From assembly GCA_022478985.1 (NCBI GenBank), contig JAKSZP010004236.1, positions 48,822 through 112,821 on the forward strand: a stretch of DNA of 64,000 bases, written 5' to 3'. Position 1 is the first letter of the stretch, and the number at the start of each line of letters is the position of its first letter. The translations under genes and the position numbers were made by a program. Under the pieces are notes generated by a model. The model did not search any database, was not told the origin of the DNA, and worked only from the letters and a program-made list of their open reading frames with translations. Below, piece by piece: positions 7,906 to 36,275 of the stretch. This stretch comes from Massospora cicadina. Its lineage: Eukaryota > Entomophthoromycota > Entomophthoromycetes > Entomophthorales > Entomophthoraceae.

Positions 7906-8041
7906 CTCTATCTAAGGTACGCTGACCAGGGGATGGACATTACCAATGCTCAGTGAGCAAAAGAACTGAACAAATTAATGAATGGGTCAAAAAACCAAAA
8001 TCCAAAACAGAACCTCAAACCAGTTGGGGAGCGGAATACTG

Positions 8042-9297
8042 CTAACCCACCATGGCAGAGGATGAGGGGATGGGAAGCTCTTTTACAGATACATTCTTTT
8101 GGGAAGCATCATTAAAGTTGTAGAAATGGACAAAAGCGGAGAGCCAGGGCGATGGGACATCAGCGTTGTGGGGGTGGATGGTGGCAAATGATTGGTTTTC
8201 TTCAAGATCAGCTTATAAGATAGCTTTAACTAATTCCTCTAGGTGATGCTCAGCTTGAATGCAGGCTTTGGGAAGTTGGAAAATTTTGTGATATTTTTTG
8301 GTTGCTTTTAGAAGATGGGCTTAAATCTGCTAGTTGTGCTACATGCTTGACCGCATCATTGGCTTCAGTGACCCATTTTGGTGATTTTCACCTGTGCTGC
8401 TTTGGGGAAATCAGGGGGAAATCAATTGTGCTCAGTCCTTTGTGGTATTGAGAAACAGATCGGGCCACTGCTTTGCGGAATTTGGGGCAATGGGGTTAGG
8501 CACCCGCTGCTAAGACGAGCTGGTGGTCACTTTGGTAGAGATGGCATTGGGTTTAGGAGTGAATCACTTGGGAGATGGGGTTTTTTCATATTCAAAAATG
8601 CAAAATTTTAGCCCAAACACAATCAAGATGTCCAAGAGGTTCATTGGTTTCTTCATTTATGACAACATTACCTGATTTGTCAATCTCAGATAATAAGTCC
8701 CATGGATCTTAGTTCACAAGAATATTGGATGACGAGAATTTGGGTAGTTAGAAGTTGAATGTGCTGCTTGGGCGCAAATGGTGGTCCAGGTCTGACTCTG
8801 ATTGTCGTGGGTGAAATTGGGTGGTTTAATGTGGGTGAGTGATTTGGTGGAGGCCGATTTCCCACCTTGGCCCATTGAATGAGAACGTTGAGTGGGAAGG
8901 GGCAACAAAACGCCCTATTCAGAATCCGTTGAATATGGCTCAGAAACCACACCAGAGGAAGTGGCTTAGGGCAGTATTTTTTGGAATGGTCGAGTCCAAA
9001 ACAGAGGGGTCAAATCTGGTGACCATTATCCACCTGATCGCAAAAGAATTGCTCAGGACTGCCGCGATATAAGCATGGGGGATTTTCTGGGTTATGGCAG
9101 GGTGGTGTGATTATGGAGGCAGTGGCGCGAGGTACAGCAAGGCGCTCTGAACCAGAAGAAACAGTGAAGACAAGGTTGAGCTGTGACCCTTAAGCCAGAA
9201 GCCCCACCATCAATTGATCATATAATATCTGGGGTTGGGGTGAGATGGGAGGGATTCAAAGGACACCACAAATGTGGTGTTTGTAGGGGTAAGTTTA
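8042..9297 (-). pseudogene. Element C ORF1, 3' part (zinc knuckle to stop)
   Basis: Read leftward, this continues ORF1 from the RRM-like region. A CCHC knuckle at 9016-8971 reads x-P-L-C-F-G-L-D-H-S-K-K-Y-C, with the first Cys codon now TGA (9013-9011). A Pro/Ser/Thr-rich linker follows, then DPWDLLSEIDKSGNVV near 8.7 kb, matching NPWDLLAEIDESNNII in B, and a terminal SSSAMVG before the TAG at 8044-8042 (B ends SSSTMMG). The family would be an RNA-binding ORF1 protein of a LINE ribonucleoprotein. It is broken by several shifts. Confidence 0.75.
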
Positions 9298-9312
9298 GTA
9301 GTTATTATGGGA
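9298..9312. repeat. Target-site duplication of the full LINE, left copy
   Basis: GTAGTTATTATGGGA here and GTAATTGTTATGGGA at 14521-14535 agree in 13 of 15 positions, with two transitions. They lie exactly at the 3' and 5' ends of the LINE and interrupt the ORF1 of element C. Confidence 0.8.
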
Positions 9313-9317
9313 GTATT

Positions 9318-9374
9318 TTGCAAGCTATTTTATTTAACTGAGGCAAGCCGACCAAGGGATGGGCATTACCAAAT
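9318..9374 (-). other. LINE 3' tail shared with elements A, B and C
   Basis: The minus strand reads TTTGGTAATGCCCATCCC then TTGGTCGGCTTGCCTCAG and TTAAATAAAATAG. Element B ends TTTGGTAATAGCTGTCCCC, TGGTCATCTTACCTCAG, TTAAATAAAAATAG; C and A have diverged versions. It directly follows the end of ORF2, so it is a short 3' UTR likely recognised by the RT. Confidence 0.85.
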
Positions 9375-12300
9375 ATGTGTGTAAAACGAAGAAAGATAAA
9401 ATTAGGCACCCCAAAGTACTCAAGTTACCTCTGTTGCCAGCGGGACTGCCAGGTATGGGGGGTTGGTGCACTACTCTAAGCGGGTTTCCCCCGCTATGGA
9501 GCAGGTGTGAAGAAAGGGGTCTGTGTGTAGAAACCAGAGTGGGAACCACGATTCTATGAGCGCCTGTTGCCTTGGCCTCATATATCCATAGAGCCAGGCT
9601 TGGAAGTGCTCTAATAAATGGACGTGGAACCTGTTGTTAACCCCATGAATGGTTGGGACTGTGCCCCTAAACGCATCTAAGGCAATGGTGTGGATTTTAC
9701 ACATTGCAATGGGTATCATTAAGAAACGGAGGGTAGATGGGATTGGTGACTCAATCTGGAGCGCAAGGAGGCTCTTTGATATAAAAATTCCTGCTCGTTT
9801 TGGATCTTAAGCAGGCGCGCAACTTCCTTCCATATGGCTTTGGGTGGGGGGCATGTTTCTAGGCGGTGATGTAGGGAGCCCTCCCCTCCACATACTGCGC
9901 AGGTTGTGTGGAGGGAATTGGAGCGGTCCGCCGTCCTATAGGTCCTTCACAGACAGCGCCAGGCGTTGGCTCTTATTCTCGGCTGTAGGAGTGGGTGGTG
10001 AGTCATTTTCCACATTACCTTCTGTGTGGTTAAGTCGTAGGGAATGTCCAAAACATCTAGGTATTCGATTCTAGCAATGGTTGGGGTTGTAGCAAGCATG
10101 TCTCTCTGTGGGTGATTTTCTGGATTTCTTAATTTGGAGTGGGGGCTGGGTCATCCCCTTCCCTGAACAGTGCCTGTGTTCTCTACGGTCCATCCCATGT
10201 GGCGGATGGTTCAGAGGATGCCTTTGAAGTGAGGGGAGGTTCTATGCAGACCCATTACGGTAGGGTGTTTAGCAAGGTATGATAGTAGTCTGGGTGGGCT
10301 ATGTGGGTTGGTTAATTTGAGCGCCTGTGCGAAGTTAGTCCTCGCTGCCCTGGACCAGTGTTGTTGTGAGAGGTCTGGGGCAATGACTTCCTTTATCCAG
10401 GTTCCCAGGATGCGGTTGGCGTGGCTTTCAAAATCTATTAGTCCCTTGCCTCCACTTGAGCGTGGGCTGAAGAGTGTTTCCATCCGTATGGGAGGGTGGG
10501 AGCCAGGCCATAGCCAGCCCTGGATGAGCGCGCGGATTGAAGTTATGAAAGTAGGTGAGAAGGCGATCGCGTGGGCAGGGTACCACAGTATTGGAAGGAT
10601 GATTGAGTTAGCAACTGTTACTCGTCCTGTTAGTCCTGGGGATCATTCCTTGAGGGAGGCGACGCGGGTGGATATCCTTTGTAGCAAGTTTCTTTCCATT
10701 GTCTCATTGGCATATCCCCCTGGTTCCAGCCATATCCCAAGGTGGCGGACAGGAGTGGTGGTGGGATGTGATGCAAAGGGTAAGATGAGTGGATTTTCCT
10801 TCATATGGGGGTATAGTTTCTGGTGTTGTAGCCCAGTTGTTAGTGTACTTGCCTAAGCGAACAATTTCTGTTTTCCTTTTGTTGAGCGATGCGTTGCTCA
10901 CCATGGAGTATTCCTCTAGGGTGCGTTTCAGCCGTCGGGCATCATTGTTGTTAGCTATACCTGCCACGCAGTCATCCGCTAAGGCCAGTATCTTGACTGT
11001 TGGCTGTCCTTGTGCAGTTATGCCCATGAGGCGTGAGTCAGTTACACAGAGGAGTGGGTCAAAACTGAAATTATACAGCAGTGGGCTGAGGGGGTCCCCT
11101 TGTTTGAGCCCTCTGTGTGGTGTGATCTTGCTAGTTAAGAATCCAGGGCCACATACAGCCATGGTTGCAGATTCTGTGAGGAGCATCGCCCAGTTTATGA
11201 ATCTGGGTGAGAGTTTGAAAGCGTGTAGGCATTCCTTTAGGTATGGCCAGCTAACGCGGTCATATGCCTTTTCCTGGTCTAAGAAGACTAGGGCTCCAGT
11301 CGCTTTAGACTGACATATGTTTGCAACAGGGTGTATGTTGTTCCAGATTGAGCGCCCTGGTATAAACCCAAACTGGTTGGGTGACAGGACGTCAAAGGAA
11401 ATTGCGCCTAATCTGGCTGCTAAAATTTTTGTTAGATTTTTTGTGTCAGTATTAGATAGTGCGATTGGACGCCAGTTGGCCAGGTCCAATTTGTCACCCT
11501 TTTTATATAAGGTTATGACATATGATTCATGGCCACCAGGTAGGAGGCGTGTTTCCAGTAAGCACTGGTTCATAGGCGCCAATAGGATGGGGGCAATTTG
11601 TTGAAAATATTTTTTTTATATTTTTGTAGGGTATCACATCAGCCCTGGGCATTTCCTATGTGGTGCACCGCGGATTGTATCCCAAAGCTCCTTCCGTGTA
11701 ATTAGGTTTAGAATATTGTAATTTGGCAGTGTGCTTTGTATCCCAGCATTTTGTATAATTTTTTTGATTTTTTGCAGGTCTGTCAGTGTATTGCTGTATA
11801 ATTTGGTGTAATAGCGGTGTACTTCCGCCTTGACCTCCTCAGGGTCAGTTGCCACGGTGCTGTTGGTCTTGTGGACCTGTGTGCATGTGGGCTGGTTGCT
11901 ACGGGAGTAGAATTGGTGGAAGAAATATGTCAAGCAGGTTTCGCCTTCCTTTATGTACTTACCTTTGTTCAATACTTTGATTCTGTGTTGGTGTTCGAAG
12001 ATGAGGGTGTTTAGTTGGGTGGATATTTCCGCCCATTTACATCCCCAGTTGGGGCTATAGCCAGATCTCGGGGTATTTAGCTCAAGGTGGTCCAGTTCCG
12101 CCAAGGTACGCTTGATTGTGGCTGTGTTGGTGGTGTACTTACGTGATGCAAGATGTCAGGTTTTGTTGATTAGTTTTTTTTTTAAAATTTGCCCATGTTA
12201 TGATGGGATCTGAGGTGAATGGGGCTGTGAATTCTGGGTTTGTAGCCTCATGTTCAACCCAGTCAGATATTTCGGGTTATTTTATGTTTTCTGGGTGAAG

Positions 12301-13095
12301 CTTTCTCCAAGGCGACACCTGTGCGTGGGTTTGGGTTGGTGATAACTGCACTGTAACAAGTCAGTGGTCATAAAAATTGACTTTTTTTGTTTTAAATTTG
12401 GAAAATCTTGATCGTTGGGATTGCAGGACAAGAATGTGATCAATGCAGCTCATTGATATGAGCGCTATCTCACGTATGTTGGGCCATGTCATGTGGGGAA
12501 GGAGTGATGAACTGGGGGGAGGGCATCCTGTAGGCCAAGGGATGCCTTCATTGTGCGAAATTCAATGTGCCCCGGTGAGTATCCCCTGGGGTTAAGCCAT
12601 TGGTCCATGTTGGGTTATCCCAGCAGTTAAAGTTGCCCAACAGGATAGTTTCTGGTGGAAGGGTGAGAGTTGGAACAGTTTTGAGAAATTGTTTTCTCTT
12701 GTTTGCAGTACACGGTGCATGGATGCATGCTATCAAGGTTGTTTCCTCTTGGCATGTGATTGTTGCTACTAAGACGTGACCGTGAAGGTGTAAAGATGAA
12801 TTTGTAATTTTAAGTTTTTTGTTATTTTGGACGATCACCCCACAGTGGGACATCCATATTGATTGTGATGGTGAGACCCTGGCTGACCAGGATCCAGCTT
12901 CCTCTTGTAAACAGTGGGTTTCTTAGATGGCCAAGATGTCTACAAGGGTTTTTGCAAGAAATCCAGCTTTTTGGCTTGGGACGTTTGAGCTCTGGCTCCT
13001 GCAATGTTTAGCATCCCTATTGACACTGAGGTGCCCGCGGCGCCTCAGGAGCGGTTGGGAGGACCCTCTGGCCCTATCCCACCATGGCTCATTTT
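9335..13095 (-). pseudogene. LINE ORF2: endonuclease and reverse transcriptase
   Basis: ORF2 performs target-primed reverse transcription: the endonuclease nicks DNA and the RT copies element RNA. Near 13014 the protein starts MLNIAGARAQTSQAKK, followed by the APE endonuclease (ACIHAPCTANKRK, ILLGNFNCW at about 12.63 kb, where the family has GDFN). The longest open part, 11582-10704, is the RT: FGFIPGRSIWNN, FLDQEKAYDRVSW (motif A), RGLKQGDPLSPLLYN (motif B), LALADDCVAGI (motif C, Asp-Asp at 10976-10971). The C-terminal region includes HANRILGTWIKEV and a CAVC...H Cys/His motif near 9.89 kb. Several frameshifts break it. Confidence 0.9.
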
Positions 13096-13099
13096 GGCC

Positions 13100-14510
13100 A
13101 TGCTCCGCGTCTGTACTCCAACTCTTTCAGTGATTTTATCAGTTCCCTTGATCTGACCCAATTTTTCGCGGGAATTGCAGTTTTTGGATTTGCATTATCT
13201 TTTCCTGCACGTGTCTCATGATGGTTCAATGCAGGGTGCTGATTGGGTTCTGTAATTTTGGGGTTCAAATTTGTAGAATTGTGTACCACATTTTCGTCCA
13301 TATTGCAGCTGAATTGTTCCTCAATGTGTGCATGATTGATGTCGCTTAGTGATTCAGTTAAGTTGCTGGAAAATTTTCAGCCTGGGCATATTTTTCTGAT
13401 TGGTTGGCTCGGTGTATATCTGCTATGTCCTCTTGAATTTGTCTGGGGTCAATGGATGATTCCGCGTGCACTGCCGCCTTGGCCACTGCCCGCTTGCAGG
13501 CTTTTTGTGCCGCTTTGCATTGTTTGTGTGTAACAGGGTCCACAATGGAGTAAAGCCCATCCTCACCCCAGCAGAATGGGTGGTGGCCGTCAGTCATTCT
13601 GGAAAAGTTTTTGTTAGTTTCATCCATGGCTTCCTCACATTAGTCTGCTTCCATTAGGCCTCCTTCACAGGGCATGTGTGTTCCTTGTGTCCTAATGAAC
13701 TGCAGTGGTTGCATATAGGCGGTGCACATTCCGGTGTAACTCAGAATGTGGATGACTGTCCCCCATCTACAAAGTGAAACTCTGCTGTGCGGTGGATTTT
13801 TGATAAGTCATCTTCCACTTTGGGGAACGGGTTGATAATGGCGATATCTTTGCCTGTACACAGGGTGGGCATCAGGCAAAATCTTTGTAACTTGAGTTGC
13901 ATAATTTCTCCATAGGCTATGAGGCCTTTGCGGAGCTCCTCCTCAATTACCTTACAAGGAAGGTTGGTAGGGAGCAAGTTAAATGAAATGAACAAAGTTT
14001 TCGCTTTGTTCCATCTGGTGCGCGCGGTGCACACTATTTTTTTGCCCTTGGGGAGGGCAATTTTGACGCAGACTTTTGCTGCGGCCTCCACTTCTTCAGC
14101 TGTTTTTGAAACTAATATCGATCCAGCCATGACCCAAGTTGTTAGTGGCAACATATACCGCGTGAGGGATAAGGGAGGGATGTGCCTCACATGTTTTCTC
14201 CCACAGGGTCGGGGACTCATCCCCAAGGAAGAGTTGAAGCCCATGTTCCACCTTTGAAAGGGGTTGGTTGCATTGGATGTACATGTACTGATCTTGTTTT
14301 ATAGTAAAAATCATAAACCCGACCAGTGTCTGAGTTTGTGGTTTCTTGGCAGATTGGGTTCCTGGTCCCCCTCCAGGGCGTTTCTTGCCCTTGGGTGCAC
14401 CGTTTAGTGCACCTTTTGATGTGACGCTCACCCAGGTTGTATTAGATTTATTATTAAAGTCGCACATCTCTCCTGTGTGATTATCAAAATTGCTGTTCAA
14501 ATTGAATCAT
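13100..14510 (-). pseudogene. LINE ORF1: RNA-binding protein with CCHC knuckle
   Basis: An ATG lies at 14510-14508 with a one-base shift soon after; the open stretch then runs from 14500 to about 14096 and shifts into 14244-13741. A basic N-terminal part (GKKRPGGGPGTQ) is followed by an RRM-like core (TLFISFNLLPTNLPC, EEELRKGLIAYGEIMQ), then a zinc knuckle CNHCSSLGHKEHTC at 13713-13672 (C-x2-C-x4-H-x4-C), and a Lys/Gln-rich tail. This is the chaperone/RNP partner of ORF2 in LINEs. The same domain order occurs in the ORF1-only elements A, B and C, but sequence identity is low, so those belong to a different subfamily. Confidence 0.85.
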
Positions 14511-14520
14511 AGTAACTAAA

Positions 14521-14535
14521 GTAATTGTTATGGGA
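14521..14535. repeat. Target-site duplication of the full LINE, right copy
   Basis: GTAATTGTTATGGGA, partner of the copy at 9298-9312. It sits inside the ORF1 of element C, just after the segment that aligns with the FIDFRPY region of element B. Confidence 0.8.
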
Positions 14536-14945
14536 AAGAAAAGCTGTTTTTGTAAACTAGGGGAGTAGAAGCTGCTGCTGTAGTGTCCTCCTCCATCTGG
14601 AAGCCTATGTCAAAATAGCCCTTAATGGGTGGGTATTGATAAAGCCATCCAGTGTAAACGCAGCAGCAACTACATCAATAATTGACTTGTCAGCATATGG
14701 GAACAAACGCTCATAGTCAACTTATATGCAAAATTAGATATTGGAATGATGGAGGGCGAGAGGATGGGGTCTTGAAGTGTATGCATGCCAGGTGGAGCAC
14801 TAAGTCCTATGGGGGACAAAATGGCTGGAAGGAGAAGGTAGGCTTTTTGACCCCTGTAAATTCATTTGCCCACAGAGCGGAAAATGCTAGTTGGTGGAGC
14901 ACCGCTACCCCACATTATAGCAGCAGGCGGCAGATCTGTGATATT
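14536..14945 (-). pseudogene. Element C ORF1, 5' part
   Basis: This segment aligns with the N-terminal part of the ORF1s in A and B. The start codon position (14945-14943) is ATA where A and B have ATG (ATGTCC in both), a G-to-A transition. Near 14.6 kb the reading PIKGYFDIGF, then EEDTTAAASTPLVYK, matches RPYNGYFDHGF and AATVPLVFQ in B. It continues at 9312 once the LINE is removed. Frameshifts are present. Its position on the far side of the LINE is what shows that the LINE interrupted a complete ORF1-only element. Confidence 0.75.
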
Positions 14946-15039
14946 TTTTGGAAAATGGGCATGGACAGATGGCGGTGGTAAAAAAAACTTTTATTTTTAT
15001 AAAATTTGCAAAAAGTGAGATTGAGCAGAAAGAAAACTT

Positions 15040-15057
15040 AACTTTTCCCCAATGTTA
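15040..15057. repeat. Target-site duplication of element C, right copy
   Basis: AACTTTTCCCCAATGTTA, partner of 7888-7905 (16 of 18 identical). Confidence 0.85.
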
Positions 15058-15477
15058 AATTCTCCTCTTTTTATTTATGAGTGGTGTAAACCCTGAATTT
15101 TAATAAGAAATGAGAGTCTCTATACTCTTATTATTGGTAACTTTTTTAATCTATTTCTCAAAAAGCACCATGAGCATATATATAGCCGGGATTCCAACAA
15201 ATAGATATGTTATAATAGCCATTAACAATTTAAATAAGTGGGTTGAGGGTAAAGCCTTTTTTGACTTTGGAGAAGCTACCAATGCTGAATTCATTATGGA
15301 GAAGATATACACCACCATGGTTTTCTTAAAATCATCCTAATGGATAATACTAACTTTACTTTACTGATAATTCTCAAGCTGAATGATAATGTTGGGTTGA
15401 AAAGTTATCACTACCCAAACCATCATAATACTCATGGGATGGTGACAGGGTTAACAAAACTATAAAGAATATAGGAA
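15058..15477 (+). pseudogene. Ty3/gypsy integrase core fragment (element V)
   Basis: The reading YIAGIPTNRYVIIAINNLNK, then WVEGKAFFDFGEATN and AEFIMEKIYTT, is the classic integrase core start (family: YIIVAIDYFTKWVEAK), with the first catalytic Asp replaced by Asn (AINN). After a stop, SYHYPNHHNTHGMVTGL corresponds to the YHPQTNG-VER block. Element C inserted just upstream and element T just downstream; the matching C-terminal GPY/F part lies at about 22.8 kb. The 15110-15340 stretch is open. Confidence 0.75.
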
Positions 15478-16389
15478 TTCGGCAGCAGTAAAGCCTCCCA
15501 GTAGCTTTATATGTTAGTCTTACCTTATATGTTTTGTTCATTGTTCAAATTATCTAACTACCTCTGGTAACAAACTCTATATAAACTATAAATTAACTAA
15601 TTGTTTGATTGGGCTTCAAAACTACCTTCTCTTGAGCCATCATCAATCTGTATAATTGGTTTTTGGTTACCTTGCCTCTGCACTCCCATTTTCTTGTATT
15701 TATTCAAATTTTGATCAATGCCTCACCACCTCGCCAATGCAAACCTACATTTTCTGAAATATATTGACTTACCTAACCCCCGCAGCTATGTAAAATCATA
15801 TCAATTGTTCACTATCAACTATATTGCCCTCACACCAGTGCAAACTCATTGTTGATAAGTTTATTAATAATTAATATGTCTAATCGCCAGAGTCTCTTTA
15901 ATAAAATGCTTCTTAATATTAACTTCTAAATGTCCAAAAGAGAAAGCATCGGTATTATTAACTTTTTCAGTTGACATGTAACTTTCCTAAAAATTTTAGG
16001 TGATACTATGTTGATAAATTGTTAAGCAGTAGTAAGAACTAAGGTATTTAAGCTTATTAAAGTGAATGGATTGCTATTTTTCTAAAAGTGGATATGAATT
16101 TTTGCTAGTGGGTTGTTATAGTCTACTTTGAACCACCTAGACAGCTTACCCAAGAGCCCCCAAACCACTAACAGTAATTTAATGCTACAGTGGTGTTTTG
16201 TTTAAAAGCTTTATAATAAACCCTGCTATAATAAGTTAAGGTTTAATTTTATATTTAGATATTCATGTCATCATGCATATCACTTTTTAGTTTTTGCAAA
16301 TAGCCTGTGTACTTAAAATATGCGCTTCTGCACTGATTTAACAATGCGGTTCATGATATATGGAACACTATCTGTAACCCTCAAACACA

Positions 16390-18190: not shown

Positions 18191-18289
18191 AATTAAATTA
18201 GGTCAAGCTAAAACTCTTGATGTAATTTTATAATTTTACCTGAAGCTTACTTCCTAAGCGCACCTATTTTGATATTACTATTAATAGAA

Positions 18290-18480
18290 TAAAATAGTCT
18301 AATAGTGGATAGTGGTGAACCAATAAATATTATGTCTAGTTTACTAGTAATACCTTAGTCTCACGCCAGACAATGATAACTGTAAAGATTATTGAACTGT
18401 GTGTCCCAATAAGACTACCTCTCTAGGAGCTCATAATGCGTTGCCACTGCGCTTTGGCTCACTAAGAGTATCAGATCCAG
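18290..18480 (+). pseudogene. Aspartic protease fragment of element T
   Basis: The reading LIVDSGEPINIMSSLLVIP contains the retropepsin active-site triad DSG (18308-18316) in the usual hydrophobic-LVDSGA-x-x-N context. The protease matures Gag and Pol in the family. Only the active-site flap region is readable; the rest is lost to stops. Confidence 0.65.
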
Positions 18481-19149
18481 TAATTGTATTACCAATTCTG
18501 AAATATAAGTTTTTAATTGTGACCTTTTTTATATTTATTAATAAATTAATGCTGATCTGAACAAAACACTTTTTAGATACTTGGAATAAAATTTCTACAA
18601 TTATATAATATGAAGAATTGGTTATTCAGCCCTAAAGTTAATTTTTAGCTTGCTTTTTAGCTTTTGTGCCAATTGGTTATAAGAAAGCCCTCAACTGCAC
18701 CAAGCAAATTCCAATCAGAGCTCTAGTTTAAAGGGCATCTCTTTAAGGGAAAATTAAAGTTTAAACATTTAACCATGCCATCAAATTATAGTAAGAACTA
18801 AGCTTATAAAAATTTTTCCCAAGGATTATGTTGTTTTAATTGCTTGGTTCTGTCAATAAAAACTTGTAATAGTTGCCATACTTTCTTTATCTTTCCAGAC
18901 CATAGAAATTTAAGTCCTAGAAAAATATATTTTCTTTGCCTCATCAGATAGCTACGTCAGATTGTTGCTTTTGTCCATACTTTACCAGTTGACCAAGTAC
19001 AAAGTATTATGATTATGGTAAACAGGATGAAATTGGCTTGTAGATTGAGGATTGTGGACCATTTGTTAACTAATACATTGTAAAAGCCTCTCAGGGTTAG
19101 CTAAAAAGTACTAAGCCCTGGCTCTACTTTTATATAGTACTATACTTTG

Positions 19150-23901: not shown

Positions 23902-24083
23902 TGTTATAACTGGATATTGGGCGTCAATGTACAGCTGCACAGGTCTAGTTGTTTATTGATATGTAAATACTATATGAAGACATTAACCCTATAATAAGAT
24001 GAACAATGAATATATTGCAAAAAAATTATATTGACAGCTGTATTTAATAGGTGGAAAAAAAATTGTTTAATTTTTGTATGCCC

Positions 24084-26172: not shown

Positions 26173-26663
26173 TGCCCTTAATTTATAATAAACTACATTA
26201 GAGTATATAGGTAATACATAATTATTCTGGAAGATGGTTGAAATTATTGGCCTAGAATCTGGGGGAAACCACTTAGCGATTGCTTTTAGACTGGCATGGG
26301 TACAAAAGAGAGAATGAAAATAAAAAAAGAGTTTTTTTCTATGACACTGTAAAGCTTAATAAATATAATAAGTGATTTGGGAATATTTTCAGCTGTGTAA
26401 TACTAATTTGAGCCTCAATACCTATCCTTGTCATGGCCAAGGGAAAAATGTTGGTGAAATAATTTTATCAGTTAATAGTTATATATATAAAACTTTGGCG
26501 CAGAGGCAAGGTGATCTGCCATAACATAATTTAGTAGATTGACATCAACATCAGGATATACCCCTAAAGTCTAATTTCTAGAATGATATTGGCCTAAGTC
26601 CCAAGAAATTGAAACCTTAATCTTAAATACAGATAAAATAAAAGATAATATAAATTGATTAAG

Positions 26664-28559
26664 AAAACTTTATTTTCCGGTTCATCTCACTTCAAAGCAA
26701 TTTTATTGAAAGTAAAAAGTAAGTTTACCACTCAGCTTGCCGTGACACTGCTCCACAGATGTCCTCTTCCCAACCATCTGCTACTCCCAGGTGGTGCAGC
26801 GATGAAACTCCTCTGAGTTTTTTGTCTGGCGGGCAAATGCTTGCTGCATGGCTCAGCCAGTCCACCCATTCTTTAAGTCACTTCATTCCCCTGAGAGATC
26901 TCACTTTGCACCTTGTGGGATTTCCCAACTTGATCCCACCTAAGTGCCCTCCCACGCTCAAGTCTTTGATTTTGCCTTTGTTCACCTATTTATTATTGTT
27001 CCCATGCAATGAAAAAGCTATTTATTAAGCTTTCTTTTGTTATCTTTCCACCAGCTGAGTTTATTGACTTTCGCCCTTATAAGGGCTACCTTGATATTGG
27101 TTTTCCTCCAAAGAGGATGCAGCTGCAGCTACCCCATTAAAATTTAAAAATGTCTCATCCCTACAACTGATACAATCTTCCCTAAGGATACTACAATGTG
27201 ATATCTTTTGCAAACATACCTTTTCGTCTGCCTTTCCATATTTTGTATGATGTGTTGAACACAGAGCTTTCAGCATCTGGCATCAATCTCACTTTCCAAT
27301 TCACTGTACCTACTAGTGCAGAGCTTTTCTATCCCTCACGCCACTTCTATCATTATCCCTCACTACTCCCATATTTCTAAGAAAATTTCCCCGCGTTCTC
27401 GCATGTCTTCAGCACCAGAACATTGCTTTTAGGGCTAGGACTTGACAAGGGATGACATTTTTGTCACATCTGTTTTACCATAGATCATAATAAAGACCCT
27501 GTCCCAAACCTCTGACATCAACTCCACCATTTCCTCTATAGTCTTGTTGGCTGCTTCTAAATGGGATTTTTCTTCCCCCTCCACCTCACCCACTCAATCA
27601 ATGAGCAGCGTTAAGCTACTGCCCCCACCCAAAACTCTAGCCATCTTCACCAACCTAAAGATGCACCAACTAATCAGGGTCAGGCTTGGACTAGTGTACC
27701 CACATAAGCGCCATATCATTCGTCACCCATATTCAACTTCTCACTGATTCCCCACTAAAACTAATTAAAATACATGGGAACTACAGGATGAGAGTAATTA
27801 ATTGGGTGAAATCACTCCATCCTCACCCAATGAAATTGACTTTGGTCAATTTTTGGACTCTGACTTTTATTGCTCTGTTCAACCCCAAGTGGTATATTCC
27901 AAAAATTGAATGCCATACCATTCCTTAGTGATAATCAGTTTACCGTTGCAGCAGCTTCCTCCCCTTTAGATATTCCCCTATGTGACGTCAACTTTTGATC
28001 TATCTCTATGCTGGCACATGGTCTGCCCAAGATCAGCTTTCCCCAGAATTTCCCCGCATCACCAAAACTGAAATCTCACAGTTACATAAATCGGCCAGTG
28101 ATGATGTAAGGACTGTTTATAACTGCTCTATTTCCATCCCCAGTAGTAAGTTTACCCCTGAAAGTGCCACAAAGATGTCCTATCTACCAAACACCGCATG
28201 ATTGCTGAGCGTACCTCACTTATTATTAAATGCCCTCAGCACATCCCAAGCTGCCTCAGATACCCTATTTTTGCACGTTTAGCACCTCACACCGTGGATG
28301 CCCTCACATCTTTGCTCTCTGCCATAGTCAGAGTCAGATGCAGCATAAGTTTAGGTACCAAACTACCCTTGGCTCCCCCACACCCTCCGCCATGGATTTT
28401 AGTGGTGCGCTGCCTCACCACCTGGTTGGTGTGTTTCCAATAGATGTTATTTAGAAAAAAATCTTTCTGGGAGATTTGATTTGTTTAGGATTTAGTATAT
28501 ACTCTTTGAGCATTTGGTATGTCTGTCCTCAGATTGTTTTACCTCAAATAAATTAAATA
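26664..28559 (+). mobile_element. ORF1-only LINE-derived element A
   Basis: About 1.9 kb: a short 5' UTR (TCATCTCACTT, GCAATTTTAT blocks shared with C and B), an ORF1, and a 3' tail (CATTTGGTATGTCTGTCC, then TTACCTCAAATAAATTAAAT) homologous to the LINE 3' end. It interrupts the X1 3' LTR near its end. A TSD candidate is TAAATTGATTAAG (26651-26663) with TAAACTTATTAAT (28560-28572), 10 of 13 identical. No ORF2 remnant is present. Confidence 0.8.
26759..28405 (+). pseudogene. Element A ORF1 (RRM/CCHC LINE protein)
   Basis: ATG at 26759 opens 89 codons (LSGGQMLAAWLSQSTHS, FIPLRDL). The frame then shifts and FIDFRPYKGYLDIGF is read from 27060, matching FIDFRPYNGYFDHGF in B. A zinc-knuckle remnant (C-F-T-I-D-H-N-K) lies near 27.47 kb with the first Cys pair lost. 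TWELQDESN near 27.78 kb corresponds to the PWDLL..ESN motif. The ORF end region (CCGCCATGG..., then ACCTGGTTGGT) aligns with the stop region of B. The product would bind element RNA; this copy is inactive. Confidence 0.75.
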
Positions 28560-28605
28560 TAAACTTATTAATTGGTCAGACAAGTTACAACATTTCCCTA
28601 CTTGA

Positions 28606-30964
28606 CCAAACATTTAAGCACAATAATAAAGTGGGTGTCAGATACTCTCTAGGAAGATAAGGCCATTAGGCCAAGTAACATTTAAACAAATGCAAAGATA
28701 CAATGCTTTATTTGATGTGCACTGTGTAAGTATAGGTGTTTTCCAAAAACACCTTAAATTTATTATGGTGAGGATGGACAGCACCATAGCGCCAATGGAA
28801 TCCTTTTTGGGTTGGTGGATTGGCGGAAGAACCTTAACTTACAAACAACCAGGAGTCTGTAAAGTAATATCATTTCTGACGAGGGCCTGATGACCCAGTT
28901 CAGTAGTATAACTTCATCCAGCGCAGAGGGGAATTTCATTGGACTTTAAAATATACTTTGGTAAATTTAAGTTGCTTTTTTAACTTTTGCCTTAATCATT
29001 GGAAATGATTCCTTCACTCAACTCAGCACTCAAAAGTAAGGAATGTTAAGATGTGGTCTCACTTTGGGTCTTAAGTTTAACCTCCATCAGCTCTGGAAGC
29101 CGCATGGGCATGGTATACATGTTCTCAAATAGTATACAGTAAAAACCTGACAAGAAATCCAGTCTCATAAGGTGTTGGCAGAGTAATGATGATTGTTTCA
29201 GAAAAATGTACATACCTGCGTCCACTAGGTCACATTCCCTATCATTGGATTCCTTGTTATAATACAGTGGATAGATTTTTGACCCCTACATCGAAAGTAC
29301 AATTCTCATTGTTGGCTTTAAGCCCATATTTCCTCATAATAAATGCACCAAGAAGTAACTCATAGTTTTTATGAGTTAAAACAATGGATGGAGCAGACAA
29401 ACTCTTATACAAATCCCAGCGGCAAGGAGCTATATACTCACAGTGAGGCAGTAGCGCTAGGTCACACGGTGCCAAATTGTTTTCAATGAAGAAATATTGG
29501 GTATAAATTCAAGTTTATTTATTAGCGTCAAAGGACTATTTGATGGGTTCCTACTGTCCACAATTGCCCGCACTGGTACATTAACTCACTGATATCAATG
29601 TAAGTACATTCAGCGTGATTATTCACACCATTAAGCATTTGAACAGTAATAGTATCTAATTGACTCAGGTAATTCAAAAAGTCAATACCTGCCTGTGGCA
29701 GCATAGGCGTAGCAAACTCTTTTTCTATCATCATATCAGACATTCAATTTCTGTTATTTTATGAATGGGATTTTTGAATATCTGGAAGAAGTATAATTTC
29801 CATTTTCTACTCTTCCAGAGCTTTCCCACTTTATTGTCCATAGTTGAGTTCAAATAATGAATCCCCAATCCCTTCTTATCAGGCTTAATATTATGGTTGC
29901 CAAAAGTAAGGCTGCACCAGTTGGGGTAATCAACCATCTTAGGGATGGTAGTACTGAAATTTAAACAGGGTAGCATATCCATTATAATTCTCTGTGAGGC
30001 TTGCATGCATGGCGGAAAGTGATCTTAGCATAGTTATAAATCAAAACCTTGGCCTCATACATTAACCAAGTCTTATAGTATAAGTGATTGGCGAAGTCCT
30101 AAATTACTTTGCTAGCTTAAAGTTGATAAACAGGAGGGTAATTTTCTAACCTATCATCATTTATGCCCCACCACCACATCAAAAATAATTTTTTGCTATT
30201 AAGGTAAGACATAACAGCTTCAGTTATCTTTGTCAATACTAGCTCCTGATTATAAGGTTTATTTTGTCAGCGTGGCAATTTGGTCTTGTTAATGATGTTC
30301 CCATTATATTCTCAAATAAATGCATAAATGTATTTTTCATGTCTAGTAAATTTAGCAGTTTGTTAGGGTTAACTTGGTCTAAATCATTAGAGTGATTTAT
30401 ATTGGCGTCTTGGAAACTGGAATTGATAGAAGTGACAGCTGTTTTTGCAGTGCTGGTATTAATAGCAAATATGGGTACATTAGTCAATATGTTGGCAAGT
30501 AGGCCTATGCTGCCTCCATAGAATTGTCTGAACCATAATCTGAGGACTCAGATTGACTAGTCTCTTATCTAAATTTACAAGTAGCCTCTTTAAAATCTTG
30601 GCGGAGTTGCTTTACTATGCTATAAAAGTGATGTCATTCTGCCGTGGTTTTTTGTTTATCCTTGTCCTGTTTCTTAAAGAGACTTGACCAAATAAGAATT
30701 CAATTTTTGGATTTCACGCCCTTGATATTGAAATAATCTTTATAAAATATTCAGCTTACTACAGGAATCTTCTTATTAACTGCCCCATCTATAGGTAAAC
30801 CAAGGCCATTAAGGTGGTGCAGGGTTTTATGGGTCTCCATATTGAGTTGAAACAAATTAAGAAGTATTCCCATGAGCCTAGCACTTTACAAGACTTCCCT
30901 ATAACTTGGTTCATCATACAAAACGCACAGCATGTCACCATGAAAATCATCATCTGACTATGCC
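28606..30964 (-). pseudogene. X1 gag-like ORF and protease-end region
   Basis: The first ATG after the PBS is at about 30.96 kb (MA-stop-SDDDFHGDMLCVLYDEP). Sustained minus coding follows: MGILLNLFQLNMETHK, LHHLNGLGLPIDGAVN, a Ser/Asp-rich hinge (SQSESSDYGSDNSMEAA) near 30.52 kb, then open stretches at 30487-30239 and 30006-29257. The last one ends with NYELLLGAFIMRKYGLK, which has the form of the conserved retropepsin end (YDVLLGMPWLRKYG). The next 600 bp (LSGFYCILFENMYTMPM, LPELMEVKLKTQ) is open but has no RT motif before the polypurine tract. The protease active site was not seen. Confidence 0.6.
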
Positions 30965-31004
30965 ATTTTGATTTATATTAACAGAAGATGAGACTTAAAG
31001 GTGG

Positions 31005-31022
31005 CACCTGTAGTGAGCACCA
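31005..31022 (-). other. Primer-binding site of X1
   Basis: The minus strand reads TGGTGCTCACTACAGGTG, two bases after the LTR end at 31025. Confidence 0.8.
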
Positions 31023-31024
31023 AA

Positions 31025-31727
31025 TATTGCAACTAGCGCTTTGGAATCAATGTACAACTGCACAGGTTAGTAAATTTTCCATAAAATAAAGGTAACTGTT
31101 TTTAAGACATTAAACCTAGAATAAGAATAAAGATAAGTTACTGAAAAATTTTTAATTTTAGCAGCTATAAACCGCTAGGTGAAAGAAAAATCCCTCTCAT
31201 ATTGCCACTCCCATCATAAAATGAACTATACTAAGGAATACTGGGAAGTACATAATTATTCTAGAAGAGTAGTGAAACCATTGGCTAAGAATTTATGGAA
31301 CAAAAACCCTTAGCGATTGTCTTTATGCTGGTGTGGGGAAAATAGATTGTATAATAATAAAAAATAAATTTTCGAATTTATGTCACTGTAAAGCTTAATA
31401 AAGTAATACCGAGCGAGTTGGGGTATATTGTCAGCTGGGTAGGAATAACATGAGCCTCAATACTTATCCTTGTTATGGCCCAGGGAAATATGATAGTAAA
31501 TTGATCCTGGTAATCAATAAATAATATATGAAAACCTGAGTGTGGAGGTAAGATGAACTTATGTAACCCAATCTGATGGATTGCCATCAGCATCAAGATA
31601 ATTCATTATAAACTAAGTTGACAGATTGACGTTGGCGTCAAAGCTCAAGGATTTAAAACCTTTATCTAAAAATAAAGATTTATAAAGGTAATATACATTA
31701 TATGGTTTATCAGAGTAAAGCACAACA
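31025..31727 (-). repeat. X1 5' LTR
   Basis: A 703-bp repeat aligning with the split 3' LTR. Its TG terminus on the plus strand is TA (31025), a transition. It is followed by the TSD TGGTC at 31728-31732. Confidence 0.85.
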
Positions 31728-31732
31728 TGGTC

Positions 31733-32150
31733 ACATCTCAAATTTTATGCCTTTTGTGTGATAAGAAAATTTTTTGAAGGAGCTTTATAATTAGTTAGGT
31801 TGTTACCAGCTTTTTTAATAAACTTATTGTCATTTTAGATATAATGATTTTTTGTCCTATGTCATTTTTGGGTTTGGTCAATAGATTCATCAGTTGGTAA
31901 ATTCCCCTAGTTAAGTTCTGTTATTTATGACTTGTCTCATATCCAAAAAATACAATTATCGTCACTCAACAATACCCCAATAAGATCTTGCCATGAGGTA
32001 CATAAAGCAAAATTTATATTATAATCTTGATAACTAAAGTATCCATTTAACAGAAGCTATGGAGTATTTAGGTCTATATCAATAAATTACTCAATAGGGT
32101 CATATATATGATGTCAAGCTTATGAGCTATTCTTCCAGGACAATGGTGGT
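31733..32150 (-). repeat. X2 3' LTR, second piece
   Basis: Continues the X2 LTR beyond the X1 insertion and aligns with 41430-41678 and the start of 58333-58500. The right end, where the polypurine tract should be, was not located. Confidence 0.5.
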
Positions 32151-32299
32151 ACTAGAGAACCAAATCTTCCAATTTTGCATTTTGGTAAAACTAGCATTTG
32201 ATCATTTGCTTATTCAGTTTTCTAACTAATAAGCATTTAAACATTACACTGTAAGGGAAGCCTAAAAAATCATCTTCTAATCTTCATACTTCCAAATCA

Positions 32300-33265
32300 G
32301 TGGTGTCAGGAGTTGGCTTTTAAGATGTGCTTAACTCTGAGGAAAAATAAACTTATCCAAAAAGGCTTAAAAAGGAGACAACTTGTTGGTCCAATGGTTA
32401 CTTACCTTGAAAGCCATCAAAGCTTCGTGGAAGCAATATTTTCACTTGGAAGGGTCAGTGTGGGACAATTTACATAGTATGAAAATAAGATTTACTATTA
32501 TACCGCTCTACTGCCCCATTGGTAGCGGAATGGTATGAAGCACTGAATTTTGGTAAGTTAAAACTATGAATATATCTTGGTTACCGCCTAATACATGAGA
32601 AATTGTAGAATCAAAGGACAATAAAATTTTATTCTACATGTTGGGTGGATACTGGCTCAAGTAGAATAGATGATACAGGATTAGCTGTCACAGAAATCAC
32701 CAAAATAACCTTTATTCAATTTATAGATTAATCTAAAGCAATGATGTTGTAGTGGTGGCCATAAATTGAAGTTGGTAGTGGACTAAGAACTCCAATACTG
32801 ATGTTTCCAAATGCTGATGTTGGCCACACTACTTTATGAAGATATATTAGGTTGGAAGAGCTATGTTTGGCAAACACATGGCAGGAGTCAGGGACATATT
32901 TTACAAAACAATTAATACATTCCCAATATCATTAATAACAGTCCATTAACATATTTTCTGAAAAAAACCATGTCTTAAAGTGATATTATCCTCCCTGATG
33001 TTAGAAGACCAGGCCAAAGAGCGCGCATAGGGTAGCCAGAATGTTCAAACTTGTTTGTATAAAAATCCTTCTTGATATGGGTCTAATTAACCATTCTCCT
33101 CATTCTGTCCTAGTTTTAAGTTTTTTTGATCCCACACCTTGTGAGTCCAGTTAGTTCGTAAATCTGATCTTTTTGAGAAGTATAAAGGGATAGTATGAGT
33201 ATTAAAGACGGGCTATAGGAATTCTGACGTATAGAACCCTGCTCAATGGACAATAAAAAATAAAG
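32300..33265 (-). pseudogene. X2 integrase fragment
   Basis: Minus-strand frames give NISIGVLSPLPTSIYGHHYN, then IIALD-x-SINWIKV (family: GPLP-S-GH-YI-VAID-FTKWIE) at about 32.72-32.8 kb, and FSASYHSATNGAVERYNSK at about 32.48-32.55 kb (family: YHPQTNG-VER-N, with the catalytic Glu retained). It lies downstream of RNase H on the same strand. Numerous stops. Confidence 0.75.
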
Positions 33266-34336
33266 TTTTTTCAATTTGAGTGTAGATCAAGAAAGTTGCC
33301 ATTGGGTCTTTCATTTATTGCAACCACTTAATCAAGTAATGATTGGTCACAATAGAGAAATTTTAGTTTGGAAAGGACTTAAATATTTGATGGTCAATGG
33401 TATGGCTAGCTCTCTCGTTCTGTAGTGCTATAATGCCTCTATGCCTTGTTAGAGTATTAATAAAGTATTTGATCTATGCTCAACTTGGTTAAAAGTAAAT
33501 TGCGTTAAGTTATCTTTAATCAAAGTCACTCACGTCTATAAAAGTGTAAAAATTTAAATTCAGGATTATTCTGAATAGGGCCTATTATAAGACATTCTTC
33601 AGAGAGACAAAAGCTTGTGCCATTACTTCCAATGAAGATAAGTTCTTTGTAAATTAGTTAAACCAAAGGTTAGGTCAGTTCAACAAAATATGGATAAATT
33701 GCTTATAATCACCGACTATGCCATGTAGTAATTGTATACTATGATCTGTGTAGCTTAGACATTTTTTAGATCACTGTAACCTTATCAATCCATGGAGATA
33801 TCCCTTCACTAGTGACCTTGTGACCTATAACCAAAATATCGTTCCAAAAAGTTTTACTTGGGGGGCTTAAGTTTAAGAATGTAGCTCAAATTTATTTTCA
33901 GACTTTTCTTGATTCCAAAAGTTTTCACTTACAGTATAAGAAGCACTGTGACACCATATGTAAACCAGTAAACAGGGCACTTGGTTTTACCTAACAAAAC
34001 ATCAATGGCCCAATAAAATTTTAAGTCATTGCATAATTCCTGAAACATGATAGTCAGATCAAATAACACTTTGTTAAATATTAATGCATATTTTTGTTTA
34101 ACAAAGGGGCAAATTCTATCTTCCAGTAGCCACTGACAAGATTAATGATAGAGAAAGTTAGATCCAGATAGATGTTAGATTAAAATATCAATTTGAGTGA
34201 AAGATAGTTCCCTTTTCATGTTATTGCATCTTAGCAACTTTAATCCATCACTATCTGATGTCCTACAACTTATTTTGTATTAACATCAATGGCGAGGCCC
34301 AAGGACTCAGAGAGGGCTTCATAATCCTACCTTTTT
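33266..34336 (-). pseudogene. X2 reverse transcriptase-RNase H, main part
   Basis: From right to left: KRELSFTQIDILI and HLSGSNFLYH (family: KR-YPLP-IDDLLD-LSGS-FFS-IDL), FDLTIMFQELCNDL, SYTDHSIQLLHGIVGDYKQF (the post-RT FLG..NYYR.FI block), a segment corresponding to the tether, and RNase H end QNERASHTIDHQIFKSF followed by FSIVTNHYLIKWLQ (family: VVTDHQALKWL). It continues across element B at 36299-36480, the N-terminal RT segment. Confidence 0.8.
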
Positions 34337-34359
34337 ATAGTTGCAAAAAATTTAAGACA
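34337..34359. repeat. Target-site duplication of element B, left copy
   Basis: A 23-bp sequence beginning ATAGTTGCAAAAAATTTAAG; it matches 36276-36298 in 21 of 23 positions. Confidence 0.9.
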
Positions 34360-36275
34360 ACTCTCTTTCTGCTCAGCGTAACTTTCAAGCAAATCTTATG
34401 GGGAAAAAGAAGCAGTATTGACCACCCACCGTAGTTTCACTACAATGTCCTCAGATTCCCCGTTAGCTGCTCCAGTGTGGGGCAGTGGCAAATCCCTGTG
34501 CCATTTTCCGTCCAGCGGGAAAATGCACTCATACTGGATCGCCCAGTCATTCCAAACCCATGGGACAATTTGTTCCTCCTAAGGACCTCGACGCCCACCG
34601 TGCTTGTATCCAAGCGGTGCCTCATTGCCCCCTGGTGCTCCCCGGAGCTACGTGCAATACAGCCTTAGGGTCAATTATGGGAAACTTTTCCCTTACCATG
34701 ATCAAGCCATTATTAAATTGGCTCAAGTAGTGATGACTCCTGCCGGTTTTATTGACTTCCGCCCCTATAATGGGTATTTTGACCATGGCTTCACCTGTGA
34801 AGCTGACGCTGCCACTGCAGCAACTGTGCCCCTGGTTTTCCAGGGTACCCCTCTCCTCACGATTCAGACCTGGCTCCCAGTGGATACCATTTTTGTGGTT
34901 CATTTTGTTACTTTGCCCACCTACCTCCCCCCTGCAGTGCTCCACCAGGAGCTTATGGACTGTTTGGAAGCCTATGGCTCCAACCCCATCTTACAATTTG
35001 TGGTCAAAAATGGGGCCACACGCCTCGCTTGGCCTCAGGTGTATGTCATGATCAGCCCTGAATTTAGTAAAATTGCCTTGTTATATCCCCCTCACACCAT
35101 CATTCCTTCTGCCCCTGACCATCCATTCTGGCCCCCGTTAAGGGTGGGCGGACGATCTGTCCATCCTGTTTTGAGTTGGGCCACTTAAAGCACAAGTGCC
35201 CTTCCCTAGCTGCTTCTGATAGCTCTGATTTTTTATATACCAGCTTCCAATCTGCTGCCCACCCTGCGCCAGTTTCTTTATGAGGTACAATCCTACCTTC
35301 TCCTCCCCCAAAGCCTGTTGGTGCAGCTGCGCCCACAGCCACCAATCAGCTTTCTCCTCGCCCCAGTGTCACAAACGCTCCCTCCAATCAAACGCCAGAT
35401 TCAACCCCAGTTTTCTCTCATGTGTCCTCCAACAAACCAACCAAACTTCAGGCATATGCCGATTCCCCAATTCAATTTAACCAAAATCCTTGGGATCTAT
35501 TGGCTGAAATTGATGAGTCCAATAATATTATTGAAGAATACACTTTCCAACCCGTGCAGTTTGTGTATGCTGACCATGACGCTAAGCTACCCCCTCAGTT
35601 ATTCACCCCCAGCAAAATGCCAAAATGTTCCGTGGTGACCACCATCTGGCTGTTAAGCAACGGCTAAGCCAGATTGTTGTCCTCTCTGCAAACCTGTCAC
35701 TAAATCAGTGGCGATTCTTACAGTAGGAATCCCTCCTCCCATTGTTCCCTCCACCACCAATAAGCTCTAAAAGAGTATGCTGATCAAATCTCACAAAGCT
35801 TCCAATGAAGCCATACAGCATGTGGCAGTGGTAGCATAGAATCCCAAAGCCAAGATTACCCACACAAATATCACCACATTTGTAAAGCTCCCCAACCCAT
35901 GCATGAAAGCTGAAACAGCTTTGGTCAACTACATCATCTCTCTTATAGTCAACCTCTGTCTTCCTGCCACCCCAATCATTTGAGATTTCGCTCCACATCC
36001 CACTGACACCCCAACGCCCCTGATCTCCACCGTAGCCCATGCCCTGATTTGGGGTGAAGATGATGCTGATGAGGAGCTCTCTGATCACCCCTCCTCTTCC
36101 ACCATGATGGGATAAGCGGTTTCCGCTGTCCTACCTGGTTGGTTATGATCACATTTTGTGTGTCATCCACTCATTTTGGGCGGTTTGTTCATTTTGTTCG
36201 ATGAGAATTTCTTTGTTTGCTCTTTAAGTTTTGGTAATAGCTGTCCCCTGGTCATCTTACCTCAGTTAAATAAAA
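34360..36275 (+). mobile_element. ORF1-only LINE-derived element B
   Basis: 1.9 kb between excellent TSDs, inserted in the X2 reverse transcriptase. The 5' UTR is about 87 bp (CTCTTTCTGCTCA, GCAAATCTTAT, GACCACCCACC; the same blocks occur in C and A). One ORF1 follows, then a 150-bp 3' UTR ending TTTGGTAATAGCTGTCCCC, TTACCTCAGTTAAATAAAAA, which matches the full LINE's 3' end. It is the best-preserved member of the family and shows directly that the unit has no ORF2. Confidence 0.9.
34447..36115 (+). pseudogene. Element B ORF1 (RRM/CCHC LINE protein)
   Basis: ATG at 34447 is homologous to the ATG of A. About 556 codons spread over frames 1, 2, 1 and finally 2. The longest open part is 34604-35188: FIDFRPYNGYFDHGF, AATVPLVFQGTPL, then an RRM-like core (FVVHFVTLPTYLPPAVLHQ, LMDCLEAYGS). 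The zinc knuckle CPSCFELGHLKHKC is at 35158-35199. After a TGA at 35281 comes a Pro/Ser/Thr/Asn-rich linker, NPWDLLAEIDESNNIIEE at about 35.5 kb, and an acidic end (EDDADEELSD, SSSTMMG) with TAA at 36113-36115. Role inferred: RNA binding and RNP assembly. Confidence 0.8.

Follow-up and report, generated by a model that had tools for sequence, protein, structure and literature searches.

Elements in the window

The 64-kb stretch of Massospora cicadina DNA analyzed here (the window) contains three half-LINEs, A, B, and C, each 1.91-1.92 kb long, and a longer element, LINE D, which lies inside C. The half-LINEs have a common layout consisting of a short 5' UTR, a single ORF1 of ~530-560 aa that carries a CCHC knuckle, a short 3' UTR, and a 3' tail of ~50 nt. 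An earlier sequence-only reading had described three such elements of about 1.9 kb flanked by TSDs or a TSD candidate; their positions were borne out with small corrections at the edges, the measured lengths agree with the size given, and TSD pairs were recovered for A and B, that of C being a candidate identified by eye. The features are as follows.

26662-28568, plus strand: half-LINE A, full length (nhmmer match to A-family profile 3-1931)
26648-26662, plus strand: A 5' TSD (score 10; 13/15 identical to the 3' copy)
28557-28571, plus strand: A 3' TSD, paired with 26648-26662
28514-28568, plus strand: A 3' tail (tail comparison)
34360-36280, plus strand: half-LINE B, full length (nhmmer match to B profile 2-1926 at 34361-36280)
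about 34445-36115, plus strand: B ORF1 region, start and stop by eye, frame broken
34337-34359, plus strand: B 5' TSD (alignment score 18; 21/23 identical to the 3' copy)
36276-36298, plus strand: B 3' TSD, paired with 34337-34359
36231-36276, plus strand: B 3' tail, common to LINE D (58-nt inverted match at 79%)
15035-14545, minus strand: half-LINE C, 5' part (C profile 2-514; BLAST boundary)
9319-7903, minus strand: half-LINE C, 3' part (C profile 493-1918)
15053-15040, minus strand: C 5' TSD candidate, by eye (13/14 identical to the 3' candidate)
7901-7888, minus strand: C 3' TSD candidate, by eye (the window copy of C lay outside the TSD test)
7903-7957, minus strand: C 3' tail (tail comparison)
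14548-9325, minus strand: LINE D, 5.2 kb, inside C; broken frames, a CCHC knuckle in ORF1 and a reverse transcriptase (PF00078) in ORF2
9325-9379, minus strand: LINE D 3' tail (compared with A, B, and C)

The longest open piece of B is 201 aa, and the profile match of the C 5' part extends to 14522, past the BLAST boundary at 14545. Both halves of C were found in 18 of the 19 other C-family loci (L032-L050), the exception being L048 with the 3' part only, and because they adjoin in all 18, LINE D is a later insert in C. The Pfam match of LINE D to RVT_1 has an E value of 1e-31. Relatives over its full length occur at L051 (90% identical) and L052 (91%), a further locus, L053, has a weak Pfam zf-RVT match (21.9 bits against a cut-off of 27.5), and the LINE D endonuclease family numbers at least 150 matches in the genome (150/150 scored candidates, of 50,348 first-look candidates).

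Dispersed families and copy ends

The genome searched was the 1.47-Gb assembly of M. cicadina, a cicada-infecting fungus with a giant genome. Genome-wide querying, proposed earlier for B as a check, recovered a separate dispersed family for each of the three elements, the top-scored matches numbering at least 42 for B (40 of 13,583 first-look candidates scored), at least 42 for C (40 of 5,095), and at least 45 for A (40 of 2,298), all of which are lower bounds on copy number. Among the 42 B matches, 41 are at least 78% identical to the query and one is 69% identical, while the A family is old, its remaining matches being 69-79% identical to A.

Full copies run for about 1.9 kb and stop with the tail. 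The ends, which the sequence-only reading had expected to coincide, do so in 55 of the 56 copies whose alignment exceeds 1700 bases, a class that the search used favors, and TSD-like flanks (score ≥9) are present in 39 of 56 copies against 3.9% for randomly paired flanks. Many copies sit in contig interiors. Fifteen additional copies were met in the flanks of 55 loci, including L048, itself a search match; the 5' end is visible in 10 of these, canonical in four and truncated or interrupted in six. The claim that both ends are kept therefore holds for nearly full copies, whereas some other copies are 5' truncated. The 14 flank copies other than L048 span about 12.0 kb of 153.5 kb of flank (8%), a tally that leaves aside one 22-bit match in L025 and tail-only matches in L047, L051-L053, L064, and the window, and half-LINEs occupy 5.7 kb of the 64 kb of the window (9%).

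The absence of ORF2, noted for the three window elements, extends to the families: a tblastn search (E up to 1e-3) of the 1.5 kb downstream of 56 copies (54 outside the window, A, and B) gave no same-strand match to the LINE D endonuclease, and the ends are fixed. No LINE carrying a half-LINE ORF1 was seen among the loci examined. The observation of half-LINEs is confirmed, and it is larger than first claimed.

A 3' tail shared with LINEs

Over the last 50 nt, the family majorities resemble LINE D (B-D 42/47, z 20; C-D 39/46, z 17; A-D 31/38, z 11), and this similarity ends abruptly upstream (z -1.6 to 1.2 in the four preceding 50-nt blocks). Between 50 and 100 nt from the end, similarity is weak even among A, B, and C (z 0.8-2.6). 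Only a few bases separate the B majority tail from that of LINE D. The endings of A and C are different, and in a small sample of LINEs none had the exact tail of either. Because complete elements nearby carry the same short tail, half-LINEs probably use the copying enzyme of a LINE. From this tail we infer a LINE helper, and the LINE D family is proposed as its type.

RNAalifold predicted no structure, and no pair, in the tail. Two hand-made structure models were counted separately, on 57 of 65 tails, the other eight being A rows one base shorter that MAFFT placed out of register. For a GGUAA/UUACC stem with a further 3-bp stem inside it, the share of paired cells is 86.2% against 83.6% when shuffled, and covariation is 0.222 against 0.170 (0/500 shuffles in each case); two further measures show no excess over shuffles (193/500 and 208/500), and 10 of 11 double changes fall in two pairs, in five LINE rows. 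The outer five pairs of this modeled stem may be real.

Selection and decay of ORF1

Differences between families at codon positions 1/2/3 are 0.44/0.33/0.64 for A-B (512 codons), 0.34/0.25/0.54 for A-C (514 codons), and 0.42/0.33/0.63 for B-C (533 codons). In blocks picked with tblastx, dN/dS by NG86 is 0.16 (A-B) and 0.20 (A-C), with 1.08-1.69 in shifted frames, all rough figures because synonymous change between families (dS) approaches saturation and similarity guided the choice of blocks. Since change between families falls mostly at third positions and dN/dS is low, ORF1 stayed under purifying selection without ORF2, which answers, at the between-family level, the test of selection suggested by the sequence-only reading. 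Within B, shared variants number 99/75/108 at positions 1/2/3, a weak codon signal (p about 0.045) tallied in the clear-frame windows 121-480, 601-1200, and 1441-1680.

No intact ORF1 is present among the 56 copies, the longest open frame being 280 aa. Frame changes are needed in the family majorities; in B, the family inspected for them, two that were checked lie at or beside C-runs, and if the assembly is the nanopore-based one already published, it may contribute false frameshifts.

In alignments of LINE D ORF1 with half-LINE copies, identity is 30-37% over 53-105 aa (lowest E 1.5e-7), and judged by such alignments the half-LINE ORF1 is distantly related to local LINE ORF1s. Searches with a half-LINE ORF1 piece and profile matched only M. 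cicadina proteins, and no Pfam family was found in two half-LINE ORF1 pieces. The core of this ORF1 is presumably RRM-like, as read from its motifs. An RRM fold was not recovered for it: the AlphaFold2 model of the 201-aa B piece with 22 relatives is poor (mean pLDDT 59.6, pTM 0.36), and Foldseek gave no match at E ≤0.001, the best being tandem-RRM proteins (best E 0.28), so that the RRM-like label reflects motif reading.

The broken frames in 56 of 56 copies and the weak codon signal inside B would suit a SINE-like passenger that spreads through the LINE tail only, its ORF1 being a dead remnant without a role, particularly as the tail alone could be enough in stringent LINE systems (PMC3747384). 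Such a passenger is nevertheless unlikely, given the third-position bias and low dN/dS among A, B, and C, an ORF1 size of ~530-560 aa kept across three families, and the failure of a simple regex to find a B-box-like motif within 250 nt of the start of any of the three family majorities. Somewhat less credible again is a host origin, in which a domesticated ORF1 (gag-like) gene ending in a LINE tail would serve as a stable source of inert retrocopies. Such a source would fit the star-like shape of the B family (mean pairwise identity 81%; copies 84-90% identical to the majority) and an ORF1 conserved between families yet broken in all 56 sampled copies, but several source genes would be needed to account for three diverged families whose 5' and 3' ends are constant within each.

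Kinship of A, B, and C

A shared architecture had been claimed for A, B, and C. It stands end to end with family profiles, from which alone the relation emerges, but not in pairwise BLASTN, which detects nothing beyond a 35-nt stretch of ORF1 and the 3' tails. With the C profile, matches begin at position 2-84 and finish at 1915-1919 in each of the 30 B copies, and span 4-1918 in A. With the A profile, most C copies are matched over almost their whole length, and B copies in one or two segments. A, B, and C have sequence in common near the ORF1 end and in the 3' UTR (z 7-9 for A-B, 100-200 nt before the end), and in a tree the A/B/C ORF1s are separated from four LINE ORF1s by a 100/100 split with a branch length of 1.47. 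These comparisons make A, B, and C branches of a single lineage. An origin by three separate internal deletions of full LINEs, or as ORF1-only read-outs of LINEs with no lineage of their own, is very improbable: HAL1 did arise several times in mammals (PMC5753468), but that likeness near the ORF1 end and 3' UTR, the whole-element profile matches, and the tree split all speak against it. The sequence-only reading had ORF2 lost three times; because the profiles align the three over their full length, a single loss is the simplest account.

Interpretation and relation to known elements

The reading of the elements as a HAL1-like half-LINE family gains support from the fixed ends, the absence of ORF2, and selection on ORF1. 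With good confidence, A, B, and C can be regarded as one superfamily of ~1.9-kb non-autonomous, ORF1-only non-LTR retrotransposons, whose own ORF1p would package the RNA and which would be copied by the ORF2 of tail-sharing LINEs. The half-LINE RNA would be translated into ORF1p, which would bind chiefly the RNA that encodes it (cis preference); a LINE endonuclease/reverse transcriptase would then recognize the common 3' tail, and the RNA would be copied into the nicked target by target-primed reverse transcription. A broader proposal, to which we give slightly less than even odds, is that of one long-lived ORF1-only parasite lineage, dependent on LINE enzymes for so long that its families have come near saturation at synonymous sites, with its own selected ORF1 about one-third identical to the LINE ORF1s compared. 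It may track its helpers by the tail, and may make up several percent of the 1.5-Gb genome, an extrapolation because the flank sample and the window are both biased.

The half-LINE superfamily is neither HAL1 nor HeT-A, both of which are known analogues. HAL1 is derived from L1, with several independent origins described (PMC5753468), and is thought to require ORF2p in trans, its ORF1 coding capacity having been kept for about 29-44 Myr in guinea pig (PMC3627910). Like A, B, and C, it encodes only ORF1p, and its ORF1 was kept under selection, as seen between the half-LINE families and weakly inside B. Mammalian L1 is described as relaxed in its use of poly(A) (PMC3747384), whereas A, B, and C appear to have a specific ~50-nt tail common to LINEs. 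They also differ from HAL1 in being fungal and seemingly one lineage, LINE D ORF1 being only 30-37% identical.

Insertion of HeT-A is not known to make a TSD, whereas half-LINEs are dispersed and have TSD-like flanks in 39/56 copies. HeT-A of Drosophila (with TART/TAHRE) is, as A, B, and C are, a non-LTR element with ORF1 only; it is described as obtaining reverse transcriptase from another element and as targeting chromosome ends (PMC4700185). If the present reading is true, loss of ORF2 with a selected ORF1 is a repeatable and durable lifestyle, so far represented by mammals and telomeric HeT-A.

SINEs have a Pol III promoter and are not known to carry a conserved long ORF, whereas half-LINEs carry a selected ORF1 of ~530-560 aa and no B-box-like motif by simple regex. 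Half-LINEs resemble stringent SINE/LINE pairs in that their 3' end is also common to a LINE; in such pairs (UnaSINE1/UnaL2), the LINE 3' end is shared and a hairpin there is described as common (PMC3747384). Fungal half-LINEs with a stringent-type tail would part two signals that are hard to separate in L1, namely the 3' tail, acting through ORF2p, and ORF1p acting in cis.

A literature search, covering sources outside subscription journals, found no fungal half-LINE precedent. In Blumeria graminis, EKA consists of many-copy truncated sequences derived from a LINE ORF1 (PMC4641428), which by that description are degenerate and co-opted as effectors, without a fixed-end family and LINE tail such as half-LINEs have. 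Eg-R1 of the same fungus, an abundant non-autonomous non-LTR element, differs in being called SINE-like, with a described peptide of 74 aa (PMC6022598). A LINE expansion has been reported in the giant genome of M. cicadina (PMC11105155), and half-LINEs may explain some of it. They also flag errors in gene annotation, nine M. cicadina "hypothetical proteins" matching the half-LINE/LINE ORF1 profile.

Half-LINE families in the Massospora cicadina genome

Massospora cicadina is a member of the Entomophthorales whose published assembly (1.488 Gb, 19,694 scaffolds) is reported to comprise 92% transposable elements, with Ty3 LTR elements making up 73% of these (PMC9584336), and a Ty3 burst followed by LINE expansion has been described as unique to this species among the genomes compared (PMC11105155). 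The three half-LINEs, ~1.9-kb elements with ORF1 only that a sequence-only reading had grouped as one family, lie in the window where that reading placed them, and one of them is split by a LINE of the type proposed as helper:

26662-28568, plus strand, half-LINE A
34360-36280, plus strand, half-LINE B
15035-14545 and 9319-7903, minus strand, half-LINE C, in two parts
9325-14548, minus strand, LINE D, 5.2 kb, with ORF1 and ORF2, within C

In an assembly of 1,469,884,898 bases (16,968 contigs), where the window occupies positions 48822-112821 of one contig, B has at least 42 matches (best 40 of 13,583 candidates scored), most covering the query from 1 to ~1917; among the best-scored matches identity is 78-83%, B itself aside, plus one at 69%. 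At least 42 matches were obtained for C, queried with its 3' part only (best 40 of 5,095 candidates scored), and at least 45 for A, 69-79% identical, A itself aside (best 40 of 2,298 scored). These counts are lower bounds, and ranking the candidates by score biases them towards full-length copies.

Element ends and target-site duplications

Ends were compared in those copies that align over more than 1700 bases, 56 in all: 30 B, 18 C and 8 A, taking in A and B of the window and leaving out the split C. An end was counted as canonical within 30 profile positions on the 5' side or 35 on the 3' side. Both ends are canonical in 55 of them, the sole exception being a C copy (locus L046) with the last ~100 positions missing. 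Flanks resembling target-site duplications (TSDs), at a local-alignment score of at least 9, accompany 39/56 copies versus 3.9% of randomly paired flanks of different copies; at a score of at least 10 the figures are 33/56 and 1.4%, and the median length in these copies is 17 nt.

Fifteen further copies were found in the flanks of sampled loci, including one (L048) that was also a search match through its 3' part. Since six of the ten 5' ends visible among them are truncated or interrupted, the other four being canonical, half-LINEs do undergo LINE-like 5' truncation, though many copies are complete; eight of the ten visible 3' ends are canonical. At one locus (L040:649-3846) a half-LINE lies in opposite orientation within another, and the two parts of the host element share ~20 profile positions, the overlap to be expected of a TSD.

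Kinship of the three families and absence of ORF2

BLASTN among A, B and C returned nothing beyond 35 nt of ORF1 shared by A and B, and the 3' tails, which matched between B and C and for C against itself. A profile built from 18 C copies aligns with A over positions 4-1918 and with each of the 30 B copies, starting between 2 and 84 and ending between 1915 and 1919. With a profile built from eight A copies, the alignment covers almost the full length of most C copies, and B copies align as one or two segments. Upstream of the tail, likeness persists between A and B (z for consecutive 50-nt blocks: 1.9, 7.4, 9.3, 2.9) and is weaker for A-C and B-C (z 0.7 to 5.6). In an unrooted tree of the ORF1 core with seven rows, A, B and C fall on one side and the ORF1s of four LINEs (D, L018, L064 and L041) on the other (support 100/100, branch length 1.47), the L018 reading being partly out of frame and on a long branch.

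No same-strand match to the LINE D endonuclease was found by tblastn 3' of any half-LINE in the sampled loci, with flanks of up to 1.5 kb, and the two halves of C are contiguous in 18/18 C-family copies where both were found. LINE D itself carries a reverse transcriptase domain (RVT_1, E 1e-31), has full-length relatives that are 90% (L051) and 91% (L052) identical, and belongs to a large family, as all 150 scored endonuclease candidates match (best 150 of 50,348 first-look candidates). The simplest reading is a single loss of ORF2 before A, B and C diverged.

Selection on ORF1 and its relatives

ORF1 readings pieced together from the family majority sequences have 528 aa in A, 551 in B and 558 in C. 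Of the frame changes in B, the two inspected fall at or beside C-runs that differ by one base from copy to copy, and we take them to be slippage or assembly error. Between families, ORF1 differences concentrate at third codon positions, with pN/pS of 0.50 for A-B (512 codons), 0.46 for A-C (514) and 0.53 for B-C (533), values that carry no shifted-frame control and in which pS (0.64-0.76) is near saturation. For blocks chosen by tblastx, dN/dS after correction is 0.16 for A-B and 0.20 for A-C; saturation of dS made a value for B-C impossible to compute, and the same blocks read in shifted frames as a control gave 1.08-1.69. Since A, B and C all lack ORF2, this selection would, provided that the loss was single, have acted at least partly during the non-autonomous stage. 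Within the B family the codon-position signal is weak, which is expected of copies decaying after insertion and counts as no support.

The LINE D ORF1 reading matches half-LINE copies over stretches of 53-105 aa with 30-37% identity (best E 1.5e-7, among sampled sequences), three other LINE ORF1s (L041, L063 and L064) are 35-40% identical to it, and B and the LINE readings have in common the order of core, then CCHC knuckle. Judged by sequence, the ORF1s of half-LINEs and LINEs are homologous. For B, the open stretch of ORF1 has four protein matches, all from M. cicadina, and an ORF1 profile run against a 5.8-billion-protein database gave nine, again all from this species (4,925 candidates scored). 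These nine public database entries (P0001-P0004 and P0124-P0128) are named 'hypothetical proteins'; as they match the half-LINE/LINE ORF1 profile, transposon ORFs have seemingly been annotated as genes.

The shared 3' tail and the proposed mechanism

Over the last 50 nt, the majority sequences of B and D agree at 42/47 aligned bases (z 20), those of C and D at 39/46 (z 17) and those of A and D at 31/38 (z 11), and the four 50-nt blocks upstream have no likeness between half-LINEs and D (z -1.6 to 1.2). By profiles, the tail match is also present, weakly, in many single copies. B and D majorities both end in TCAGTTAAATAA, A and C otherwise, which hints that B and D may belong together; in some B copies the other form is present. 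Five 3' ends from other LINE families, met in flanks (L003, L010, L026, L049 and L023), bear a related tail with GGAAG/CUUCC in place of GGUAA/UUACC, a double change that would preserve the putative stem, with variants in L023 (AUAAG) and L049 (CUUUC). Of five measures of pairing in the tail, three lie above the shuffles, mostly owing to the five LINE rows, and RNAalifold predicted no structure for the tail.

In stringent LINE systems a shared 3' end is described as the presumed route by which a non-autonomous element recruits its enzyme (PMC3747384). Half-LINE RNA would be translated, its ORF1 protein would act in cis, and the ORF2 protein would be borrowed from a LINE. HAL1, as described (PMC5753468, PMC3627910, PMC4859970), works much as proposed here, but A, B and C differ from it in 3' tail and origin; HeT-A likewise (PMC4700185), but they differ from it in TSDs and dispersal. 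Among fungi, the closest cases found, the Blumeria EKA ORF1 fragments and Eg-R1, both differ from half-LINEs as far as their descriptions go (PMC4641428, PMC6022598).

Surrounding repeats

Three pairs of repeats and two coding remnants, named from reading translations, also lie in the window:

26210-26463 and 31244-31505, repeats ~5.04 kb apart, 74-80% identical, half-LINE A between them
41678-42744 and 57239-58318, repeats ~15.57 kb apart, most blocks 79-92% identical
49331-50159 and 54460-55283, direct repeats ~5.13 kb apart, blocks 83-96% identical
50872-51177 and 52661-53065, minus strand, Ty3-like reverse transcriptase and integrase pieces

The direct repeats ~5.13 kb apart, with the Ty3-like pieces between them, look like a Ty3-type LTR element. 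The repeats ~15.57 kb apart flank it and may be LTRs, in which case an older element would hold a nested insertion. Half-LINE A may lie within an LTR element.
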